The position numbers were made by a program, and so were the translations under genes. A stretch of DNA of 33,160 nt from a bacterium (GTDB taxonomy: Bacteria > Myxococcota_A > UBA9160 > UBA6930), in the NCBI GenBank assembly GCA_024228115.1, contig JAAETT010000425.1:1-33160 (forward strand). Reading direction: 5' to 3'. The notes beneath the pieces are model-generated. The model was not told the DNA's origin, did not search any database, and worked only from the letters and a program-made list of their open reading frames with translations. Positions within the stretch are counted from its first letter, which is position 1. Every line of letters starts with the position of its first letter. Shown here piece by piece: positions 26,931 to 29,948 of the stretch.

Positions 26931-28211
26931 CTAGGGCTGGGCCGCGGGCTGAGCCGCGCCATGCCCTTCGCGAGCGCCGCGCAACTCCGCCTGAAGCGAG
27001 CGCTCCAGACCCGCGGTATCGAGGCCGATGGCCTCGCGCAACGCCTTGTCGGCAGGCCAACCCTCACCGATGCGTTGGAGCAATTGGGCCCTCCCGGCCG
27101 CCGTGCTGTGGCGCTCGATCCAGTCGGCAGCGGAAGTGGAAATCGCGTAGGCGAGCCGCGCTTCCTTGTTGTCGAGCCCCGCAAAGCTGGGCGCCAGGCG
27201 ATGCAGATCGATCCAGCGGCCTCGCTCGAGGGCGTTTCGCAGGCGGGTCTGTTCGCCCCGGGAGAGGGGTGCGCGACGCTGGGAGGCGCGCTCGTAGATC
27301 TCGGCCAGGCCCTCGTTCAGCCAGAAGGGACGATCGCCGCCAGTCTGCTCGCGGAAGAGCGCATGGGTGTACTCGTGGACGAGAAGCGTACGAAGCTCTC
27401 CGGCAGGGTGGGCCTTCGAGACCACGTGGATACGGCCATCGAAGAAGCCCACGGTCTGGAAGCTGAAGCGATGGGCGTGGGCCTTCACGTAGGCTGCCTT
27501 GCCATACAGCACCACAGCCGTGGGCTCGGCCGGATAGGCACCGACCCGCGTCCCGACCAGCGAGCGAGCGTCATCCAGGTAGCGAGCGACCGTGCGGGCG
27601 AAGGAGACCTCGCCCGTCTTCAGCAACTCCGCATCCGCCTGGATATGAAATGCCTGGTGCTCGAGATCCACCAGCCGCAGAGGTCTGGCGGCCGGCCGTT
27701 CCATCAGATGGCGCTCGTCATCGAGGCGGGCCAGGCGCATCTCAGCCGAGGCGCGCCATGGATCGAAGCGATCTCCGGCAACGGAGAGGAAGGTCCGGAG
27801 GTGGTCCTCGGCCTTTCCGAGATGGCCACGCCGCCCCTCGATCAAGGCCAGGTAGAAATGAGGCTCCGGCCGGTCCGGGTCGGTTCGAAGCAGTGCCCGG
27901 AGGGCTGAGCCCGCCCTGCCCCCCTCGCCCTTGCCGAGGTCGGCCACGGCATCCCGCAGCACGCGGATTGCCCGATCCTCCTCGCGTCCGCTCCAGCCGG
28001 GCGGCGTCCAGAGCGGCTCTCCGCGGCTGTCGCCATTCCAGAGCCCGCGGACGGCTTCCACGTTCCCGTCCGCGACAGCGCCATCCGGAGGCTTGGAGGC
28101 CCCGTCCGTGATGTGGGTCTGACCCTGCTCATCCACCCAGACGTGCAGATCCGCCGAGAGGAGCAGGCTGGCCAGCGGAAGCAGGAGGAAGAGCCGGAGA
28201 CGGGGAGCCAT
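26931..28211 (-). CDS. Secreted DUF4124/gluzincin peptidase-like protein
   Basis: A 426-aa protein. Signal peptide (MAPRLRLFLLLPLASLLLSA), a DUF4124-like strand pair (HVWVDEQGQTHITDG, about 23-37), a TPR-like helical region (about 80-165), and a peptidase MA-like part with HEYTH at 279-283 (His279, Glu280, His283) and a downstream Glu300 in WLNEGLAE, the gluzincin third ligand. It is probably a periplasmic metalloprotease or a relative; substrate unknown. ATG 28211 gives the signal peptide. The long hairpin at 28236-28342 lies 24 bp upstream. Confidence 0.8.
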   Translation of the reverse strand: MAPRLRLFLLLPLASLLLSADLHVWVDEQGQTHITDGASKPPDGAVADGNVEAVRGLWNGDSRGEPLWTPPGWSGREEDRAIRVLRDAVADLGKGEGGRAGSALRALLRTDPDRPEPHFYLALIEGRRGHLGKAEDHLRTFLSVAGDRFDPWRASAEMRLARLDDERHLMERPAARPLRLVDLEHQAFHIQADAELLKTGEVSFARTVARYLDDARSLVGTRVGAYPAEPTAVVLYGKAAYVKAHAHRFSFQTVGFFDGRIHVVSKAHPAGELRTLLVHEYTHALFREQTGGDRPFWLNEGLAEIYERASQRRAPLSRGEQTRLRNALERGRWIDLHRLAPSFAGLDNKEARLAYAISTSAADWIERHSTAAGRAQLLQRIGEGWPADKALREAIGLDTAGLERSLQAELRGAREGHGAAQPAAQP

Positions 28212-28235
28212 GAAGACCCCATCGGCCATCCCCCC

Positions 28236-28342
28236 AACAACTCAACCAGCGGGGACGGGGTTTACAATTGACCTTATGGAAGGGGGCTTTGCCCGCTTCC
28301 ATAAAGTCAATTGTAAACCCCGTCCCCGCTGGTTGAGTTGTT
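28236..28342. repeat. 107-nt near-perfect hairpin (REP/MITE-like)
   Basis: Two 47-nt arms (28236-28282 and 28296-28342) are reverse complements with one mismatch. The 13-nt middle closes further as GGGC-TTT-GCCC, so the whole element is one long stem with two mismatches. It starts 1 nt after the stop of the FAD-oxidase gene and ends 24 bp before the start of the next gene, both minus. The arms contain CAATTG and a GGGGACGGGG tract. It could act as a terminator and looks like a small palindromic mobile repeat. Confidence 0.9.
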
Positions 28343-28343
28343 T

Positions 28344-29948
28344 TCAGGGGTCGATCAAGACGCCTGGGTTGAGCATGGAGCCTGGGTCGAGTTCTCGTTT
28401 GGCGGCGCGGAGGGCGCGGGCGAAGAGTTCGGGCCGCTGGCGGTCGTAGCCGTCCCGGTGCATGCGGCCCACGGAGTGATGGTGGGTGCTCGTACCGCCG
28501 GCGCGGATCACGGCATCGGTGGCTGCGGCCTTGATCTCCGCCCACTGCTCCAGCTCGGCACCGGGTCGTCCGCGGGTCGAGAAGGTGTAGTAGGGAGCCG
28601 GGCCATCCGGATACACGTGGGTGAAGCGGCAGGAGAGCGCCCCGCCGCCGGCGACCTCGGCCATGGCCTTTTCCACGCTGGCCCGGACCTCCCGGTCGAA
28701 CTCGGGCCAACGATCCCAGGTGATGGATGTCTCGAAGGTGTCGGCGATCAAGCCCAGACCCGTGATCAGGTTCAGGCCCTTTCCCACGCCGATGAACGCG
28801 CTCCGCCAGGCGCCCGCCGCACCGTCCCGGCCCGTGGTCTTCTCGCTGGAATCGGAGATGCGAATCTCCTCGTCCCGGATCTGCCCGCCGCACTCCCGGG
28901 CGATGGCGACCGCCTGGGTGATGTTGTGGTCCTGGGGCAATTCTGCCGATTCGAAACCCAGGATCAGCAGCGCCTGGCTGCCATCGAGCCCGGCGTTCTT
29001 CGCCTCCCTCGGGTCGAGCAGTCGAAGGTTGGCCGGCCAGAGCTTGGCCTGGGCGATGTGCCGGGCGGCTTCGGCCCCCGGTTCCCATTCGTCGAAGCGC
29101 AGGCTCGCCGTGGCACGGAAACGCGGGCGACGCTGGATGCGCATCCAGGCCTCGGTGATCACGCCCAGGATGCCTTCCGAGCCGATCGCCAGGCGATCGG
29201 GGCTCGGCCCGGCCCCACTGCCCGGAAGCCGCCGGGATTCCCACCATCCCGAGGGCGTCAACATGCGCACGGACTCGACGAAATCGTCGATATGCGTGTG
29301 ATTCGTCGCGTAGTGGCCGCCGGAGCGGGTCGCGATCCAGCCACCCAGGGTCGACCACTCGAAGCTCTGGGGAAAGTGGCGCAGGGTGTGGCCGCTTGGC
29401 CGGAGCTGGTCCTCGAGCGCTGGCCCGAAGACGCCGGCTTGGATGCGCGCCGCGCGGGAAGTCTCGTCCAGCTCGAGCACCTGATCGAAACGATCGAGAT
29501 CGATGGTCACACAGGGCGTCTCGTCCTCGGGAATGCAGACGCCGTAGACCACCGACGAACCGCCGCCCCAGGGCACGGCCCGGCAGGAGCGATCTGCACA
29601 GAACGCCATGACCTGTTCGAGTTCGTCTTCGTTGCGCGGATGCGCAACGAAATCCGGCGGGTGGGAGAACTCGCCGCGGAAGGCGCGCAGGCGTTCCGGG
29701 AAGCTGGCGCCATAGGTATGCAGTGCACGCTCGTAGTCATCCGCCGCGCAGAACAGGCGGAGCGCCTGGCTGGGTTCGATACGAGGCCGGCGAAGATCCA
29801 CCGCCGCGAGGGGCACGGCTTCCGGAACCGGCAGGTCGCGTCCCCACTCCGCCGACAGGCTTTTCGCAAACCCGACGCGCTCCTCCTGGCTGGGCTCGTC
29901 GGATTCGAGACCCCACGCCCAGATACTGCGCCGCGAGCCCTCCGTCAT
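28344..29948 (-). CDS. FAD-linked oxidase, alkyl-DHAP synthase-like
   Basis: A 534-aa flavoprotein. FAD-binding domain: VPWGGGSSVVYG (about 127-138) for the pyrophosphate loop, and TLGGWIATRSGGHYATNHTHIDDFV (around 205-230). The C-terminal cap has YYTFSTRGRPG and GTSTHHHSVGRMHRDG, like the HHH site of alkyldihydroxyacetonephosphate synthase, which makes ether-lipid precursors. Other members oxidise lactate or glycolate, so the substrate is inferred. Also seen in Myxococcota, which make ether lipids. Starts with ATG 29948; ends 1 nt before the long hairpin. Confidence 0.85.
   Translation of the reverse strand: MTEGSRRSIWAWGLESDEPSQEERVGFAKSLSAEWGRDLPVPEAVPLAAVDLRRPRIEPSQALRLFCAADDYERALHTYGASFPERLRAFRGEFSHPPDFVAHPRNEDELEQVMAFCADRSCRAVPWGGGSSVVYGVCIPEDETPCVTIDLDRFDQVLELDETSRAARIQAGVFGPALEDQLRPSGHTLRHFPQSFEWSTLGGWIATRSGGHYATNHTHIDDFVESVRMLTPSGWWESRRLPGSGAGPSPDRLAIGSEGILGVITEAWMRIQRRPRFRATASLRFDEWEPGAEAARHIAQAKLWPANLRLLDPREAKNAGLDGSQALLILGFESAELPQDHNITQAVAIARECGGQIRDEEIRISDSSEKTTGRDGAAGAWRSAFIGVGKGLNLITGLGLIADTFETSITWDRWPEFDREVRASVEKAMAEVAGGGALSCRFTHVYPDGPAPYYTFSTRGRPGAELEQWAEIKAAATDAVIRAGGTSTHHHSVGRMHRDGYDRQRPELFARALRAAKRELDPGSMLNPGVLIDP

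Follow-up and report, generated by a model that had tools for sequence, protein, structure and literature searches.

What is a near-perfect hairpin of more than 100 nt doing directly behind the stop codon of a bacterial gene, and does it belong to that gene or to something that moves? The sequence in question lies near the end of the window, by which we mean the entire 33,160-nt stretch of DNA that was analysed, and is flanked by two genes of the minus strand. The stop codon of the first, for an FAD-linked oxidase, falls 1 nt from the hairpin (gene end 28344); the second starts 24 nt past it, at 28211, or at 28229 if the longest open reading frame is taken. An initial annotation had pointed out both the near-perfect 107-nt hairpin behind the stop codon and this spacing, and both are borne out. 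It had counted arms of 47 nt with one difference and a GGGC-TTT-GCCC tip. The object is the same, but an inverted-repeat search gives arms of 52 nt (28236–28287 and 28291–28342), 96% complementary with two mismatches, around a 3-nt loop: 47 outer pairs including one C/T difference, which in RNA is a G-U pair, then one G-G mismatch, then four pairs. As RNA, the hairpin has a minimum free energy of −98.8 kcal/mol (z −16.8 against dinucleotide shuffles, with 0 of 200 shuffles equally stable), and as DNA a fold energy of −62 (z −16.4). In the rest of the window, searched for arms up to 200 nt apart, all inverted repeats are 19 nt or shorter. An Rfam search of the hairpin returned sub-threshold chance matches only; mir-935, for example (27.7 bits; cut-off 73), we dismiss as a long-hairpin artefact. 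The parts of the element, described below, are listed in Table 1.

Table 1. The hairpin element and its neighbouring genes (positions in the window)
Feature	Position	Strand	Basis or remark
Complete palindromic element, REPIN-like inverted arm pair	28236..28342		inverted-repeat, genome-copy, alignment and fold evidence
Outer zone, left arm	28236..28248		family consensus AAGTCAAC plus 1-2 variable bases; here AACAACTCAACCA
Conserved core, left arm, GCGGGGACGGGGTTTACAATTGAC	28249..28272	+	copy alignment
Copy-specific inner stem, left side	28273..28287		copy alignment
3-nt loop TTT	28288..28290
Copy-specific inner stem, right side	28291..28305		2 differences from perfect complement
Conserved core, right arm	28306..28329	-	copy alignment
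Outer zone, right arm	28330..28342		copy alignment
Upstream gene: FAD-linked oxidase (PF01565 + PF02913)	28344..29948	-	stop 1 nt from hairpin
Downstream gene: DUF4124 / peptidase MA-like protein	26931..28211	-	start 28211 or 28229

The hairpin is one of many. The genome from which the window comes, here G000, is a draft of 6.41 Mb in 700 contigs, and a BLAST search of it with the hairpin gave 80 strand-wise matches at no fewer than 40 places. This is a lower bound, as scoring covered 40 of the 69 candidates and at least seven copies are located at the end of a contig. The initial annotation had proposed such a search, with a single copy to count against mobility; the copy number found also rules out a terminator confined to one locus. 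An assembly artefact is ruled out as well, as two separate MAGs contain the family, at orthologous sites and between unique flanks. The complete copies number 33, and each divides into an outer zone (consensus AAGTCAAC), then a core (GCGGGGACGGGGTTTACAATTGAC) and, innermost, a stem of 5–16 nt. Cores diverge by 3.8% between copies. Inner stems are distinct in 32 of the 33; they mismatch at 31% of positions between copies and at 2.1% between the arms of one copy. In the consensus arm the outer AAGTCAA can pair with the inner TTGACTT, so that the arm is itself a REP-like palindrome; some copies deviate from this, and single arms in a related genome (G003, below) retain the stem. The GTAG tetranucleotide is absent from the conserved zones of the aligned copies. 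All copies analysed are intergenic or at gene ends; ten of them extend into the 3' end of a gene, whose tail and stop they provide.

Among 118 related genomes searched, the family or its kin occurs in three: G000 and two congeners, G003 (JAFDCZ, Deltaproteobacteria bacterium Meg19_02_Bin_150), which carries the same family, and G004, which carries a sister family. The other 115 gave no match, so that the family is restricted to the genus among the relatives searched and is not conserved in distant ones, the comparison for which the initial annotation had called. Seven sites that carry a hairpin in G000 do so in G003 as well, at the orthologous position. Other sites differ in state. In G003, those of L016 and L078 are empty, L059, L072 and L063a are reduced to a single arm, L071 lacks its centre, and L005 is a decayed remnant; in G004, the sites of L059 and L078 are empty. 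At L059 the empty G004 junction has the two converging stop codons directly next to each other (TTGATCAG); the G000 hairpin lies precisely in between. No target-site duplications were seen at the empty orthologous sites. Single-arm states would fit deletion between short direct repeats within the arms (TTGACTT, GTAAA). Behind the FAD-linked oxidase, a hairpin of G004's own sister family occupies the corresponding position; unrelated hairpins, rich in GC, can form there in G002 and G008, and in G001 there is nothing notable.

Because orthologous sites are variously empty, single-armed, centre-deleted or decayed, we infer mobility of the element over evolutionary time. The initial annotation had suggested recent mobility of the MITE or REP kind. 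Mobility is supported by the multiple copies, the restriction to the genus, a matching transposase and the empty sites; 'recent' needs care, as several G000 sites are shared with a species about 12–15% diverged in DNA. A contig labelled Alphaproteobacteria (OFTM70; L041, JAJFHD010000067.1) was considered as a case of horizontal transfer. Its 1.46 kb are 92% identical to a G003 locus, and it is more likely mis-binned or from a congener. Certain sites have peculiarities of their own. The left arm of L078 (contig C313) has GAGTAAG at its outermost end, a mirror of the CTTACTC of the right flank. That flank sequence exists already in the empty G004 site, as though a flank had been copied across on insertion. 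L069 (contig C133) and its G003 counterpart L121 are a rearranged copy: in G000 part of the outer arm recurs in the right flank, and in G003 the left outer arm is replaced. And at three gene ends with a hairpin in both G000 and G004 (L001/L131, L016/L133 and L077/L134) DNA similarity spans one flank only; either the hairpins may indicate where rearrangements took place, or the flanks may be situated at the ends of contigs.

What might move such an element? The initial annotation had proposed looking for a REP-associated transposase, and G000 does contain a REP-type Y1 gene flanked by the same repeat. A profile search with Pfam Y1_Tnp found three strong loci in this genome. One, on contig C203 (L055:3250-4161, minus strand), encodes P0001, a RAYT/TIRYT-like Y1 transposase that exceeds the Pfam threshold (PF01797) and in which an HVH motif and a YVCRNP motif can be read. 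A full hairpin adjoins the 5' end of the gene, at the point where contig C203 breaks off; at the 3' end, the gene is overlapped by a degenerate arm. Against the NCBIfam model for REP-associated transposases (REP_Tyr_transpos, NF047646) P0001 scores 51.5 bits, and three RAYT-like proteins range over 47–64 bits, all below the curated cut-off of 80. C-terminal HTH matches occur in two of the three, all below gathering cut-offs. A second RAYT of G000, on contig C653 (L093, L056), is 43% identical to P0001 and has a different repeat, with hairpins of its own at about 25 places (including L181-L204). This 'family 2' comprises 22 complete copies of the same build, with the core GCGGGGACGTTCTTTCCGCTGTTTCC; its inner stems differ by 3.6% within copies and by 36% between them. 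In G004 the orthologous RAYT locus encodes a protein 70% identical to P0001, and its 48-nt terminal repeats are those of the sister family, whose core, GCGGGGCCGGAGTTAAGAATTCAC, recurs at dozens of places. The only RAYT found in G003 (assembly 90% complete) is 45% identical; a G003 contig ends at a hairpin beside the expected locus, so its cognate RAYT may be unassembled. Related RAYTs examined in the genus, family and order have long terminal inverted repeats (TIRs) of 29–60 nt, most with a GGGG-type motif.

The C203 RAYT is most likely the cognate enzyme of the window's hairpin family, and the two transposase–family pairs of G000, with the diverged pair of G004, form the strongest evidence that enzymes and hairpins belong together. 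Other Y1-related genes also occur in G000. A separate 154-aa IS200-type transposase ORF is present on contig C273 (L057:3174-3638), and was ruled out as mobiliser, no family repeat being found on C273. Nine further ORFs (L030-L038; 174–435 aa) match only the middle of Y1_Tnp (approximately positions 21–86), and are possibly another HuH-related family.

How do the two arms of a copy remain so alike? At four sites orthologous between G000 and G003 there are seven symmetric changes, affecting both arms, and six that affect one arm, the latter mostly unresolved mismatches; L069, one outer arm of which is replaced in G003, is left out of this count. Further symmetric differences can be seen by eye at L074/L130. 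Among residual arm mismatches, 19 of 28 are transversions, and there is no G-U bias. The numbers are small, and they lean towards correction by template switching. Template-switch mutations create and maintain RNA hairpins (PMC8794818), and in that system too, multi-base symmetric changes keep stems perfect; it was described for RNA genes, whereas we propose it for dispersed mobile palindromes. Folding-dependent transposition or selection on RNA pairing could also give symmetric changes. We put at somewhat less than even the prospect that selection on RNA or single-stranded DNA pairing, and not template switching, keeps the arms perfect, the transposase moving, for instance, only perfect hairpins. 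Newly inserted copies would then all be perfect, and compensatory changes reported in the spacers of Pseudomonas REPINs were indeed read as a folding requirement (PMC3116915). The residual mismatches, with their transversions and lack of G-U bias, argue the other way, as does the near-equality of symmetric and single-arm changes, small numbers though these are: a two-step path should leave more intermediates.

The position of the copies relative to genes is strict. Gene calls came from a codon-usage model for which these loci served as the training set, and individual starts are approximate. The 31 copies with two neighbours lie between convergent genes in 16 cases, tandem genes in 14 and divergent genes in one; convergent pairs are in excess of controls (10 of 85; p 2e-5) and divergent pairs in deficit (16 of 85; p 0.04). 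Nearly all facing stops (44/46) fall within −39 to +18 nt of the hairpin, and facing starts are mostly farther away than stops (MWU p 1e-6). In family 2, stops fall within −3 to +17 nt in 27 of 30 cases, and neighbours are convergent at 11 copies, tandem at eight and divergent at one; its starts are few, and the stop-versus-start test does not reach significance (p 0.20). Promoter avoidance explains why divergent sites are lacking; the flush position it does not explain by itself. Ten genes (L003, L005, L006, L011, L017, L064, L067, L069, L072 and L073) end at a TGA inside the core, in the same frame, and because the core supplies their last codons and stop, the ten predicted proteins carry near-identical tails (consensus KSTSGDGVYN). 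Hairpin edges are rich in TAA stops, with 13 among 46, whereas the remaining 98 stops include 2. T makes up 38% of the first 12 nt beyond the stem, compared with 15% following stops in general and 17% overall. Such T-rich exits, like the stop-flush position and the bias towards convergent genes, would fit a strong terminator, the other possibility raised in the initial annotation, and bidirectional termination is plausible. A translational effect is possible by analogy with E. coli, for which PMC12306157, citing earlier work, reports ribosome stalling at REPs within 15 nt of a stop codon.

Among described repeats, this family has much in common with the REPINs of Pseudomonas fluorescens (PMC3116915), which likewise are inverted doublets of about 100 nt with conserved ends, fold into hairpins, have variable spacers of characteristic length classes with compensatory changes, leave single-arm remnants (singlets were already read as doublet remnants there) and have a cognate RAYT flanked by the same repeat. 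The features that define REPINs are found here: an inverted REP-like pair forming a hairpin, a palindrome in each arm, a compensatory spacer, a RAYT gene that the repeat borders within one genome and a predominantly extragenic location. Unlike those of P. fluorescens, however, the present arms are complementary over their whole length; they have neither the Pseudomonas 16-mer nor, in the aligned copies, the GTAG tag of REPs; their ends overlap stop codons; and copies number about 40, not hundreds. There is a second affinity, with the TIRYT/TIRtron families (PMC3733652), which PMC6006769 equates with TnpA-REP subclass 2.1 and RAYT group 1. These combine a Y1 transposase with long TIRs bearing a GGGG-type motif, and their self-complementary TIR repeats are moderately abundant and occur also as dimers; a Y1 HuH transposase with long TIRs is what we find, together with the weak C-terminal HTH matches. 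The fit to the TIRYT motif given there, GGGGWSAS, is loose, at 6–7 of 8 positions (GGGGACGG, GGGGACGT and GGGGCCGG). The present Deltaproteobacteria-labelled genus is not among the TIRYT hosts named in the portions of PMC3733652 and PMC6006769 drawn on here. E. coli REP/BIME hairpins, as summarised in PMC12306157, also lie within about 15 nt of stops and are thought to affect translation or mRNA ends, whereas here nearly all copies are flush and many supply the stop codon themselves. We file the family with the REPIN/TIRYT kind and not with GTAG REPs. It is more than a routine member in two respects: its strict stop-flush placement and supply of stops, and inner stems that are copy-specific yet self-complementary.

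We consider it highly probable, judging from these comparisons of sequence, that the hairpin is a non-autonomous REPIN-type miniature element, most likely mobilised by the RAYT/TIRYT-like HuH-Y1 transposase of C203. Two inverted arms would fold into one long hairpin, and the transposase would excise and insert it, folded and single-stranded, as IS200/IS605 enzymes do. Copies would be retained at gene ends, where they may be harmless, supply a stop and give both neighbours a terminator-like 3' end. The arms would stay perfect chiefly through template switching, one arm being copied from the other, with selection for folding as an aid. It is improbable, in our estimation, that the hairpin is instead a resident bidirectional terminator (or a ribosome-stalling or mRNA-3'-end hairpin) with its pairing kept by selection, its spread old and its mobility now irrelevant. 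The stop-flush position, the excess at convergent pairs, the T-rich exits, the unrelated hairpins that may form behind the same oxidase stop in G002 and G008, and the stalling reported in E. coli would all suit such a role, but the conserved core exceeds what a terminator needs, and matching RAYTs with the same ends occur in two species and for two hairpin families, with empty sites in congeners. This role is compatible with the REPIN-type explanation, and not exclusive of it. A conventional IS-derived MITE moved by a DDE transposase, which the inverted-repeat structure and multiple copies might bring to mind, can hardly be the answer: the palindrome runs the full length rather than being confined to short terminal repeats, comparison with empty sites reveals no target duplication, and there is a Y1 transposase to match.

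It is an even chance that the sites common to G000 and G004 (the window, L016, L077 and L005) arose by separate insertion of two families into hot spots at gene ends, and were not inherited. The core letters follow the genome's own RAYT and not the site, and the L016 site is empty in G003, the closer relative; then again, G000 and G004 seem to share more sites than chance placement would produce, and it is just as possible that the current family replaced old copies in concert. A bolder reading, speculative and on the whole unlikely, makes the element a portable gene-end cassette. It would insert at or over stops and replace the native stop with its own, either the TAA at its edge or the TGA in its core, with the KSTSGDGVYN tail added to several unrelated proteins; it would serve as terminator for both of two converging genes; one-step template-switch copying would keep its arms perfect; and the family of the resident transposase would keep overwriting old sites.

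These observations place REPIN/TIRYT-type elements in an uncultured Deltaproteobacteria-labelled genus. Two transposase–hairpin pairs in one genome, with a diverged pair in a sister species, provide a natural set for studying the co-evolution of transposase and hairpin, and the orthologous sites offer direct snapshots of insertion, arm loss, decay and symmetric two-arm change. The strict placement at gene ends, finally, makes an old question testable: whether such elements are tolerated passengers or working gene ends.
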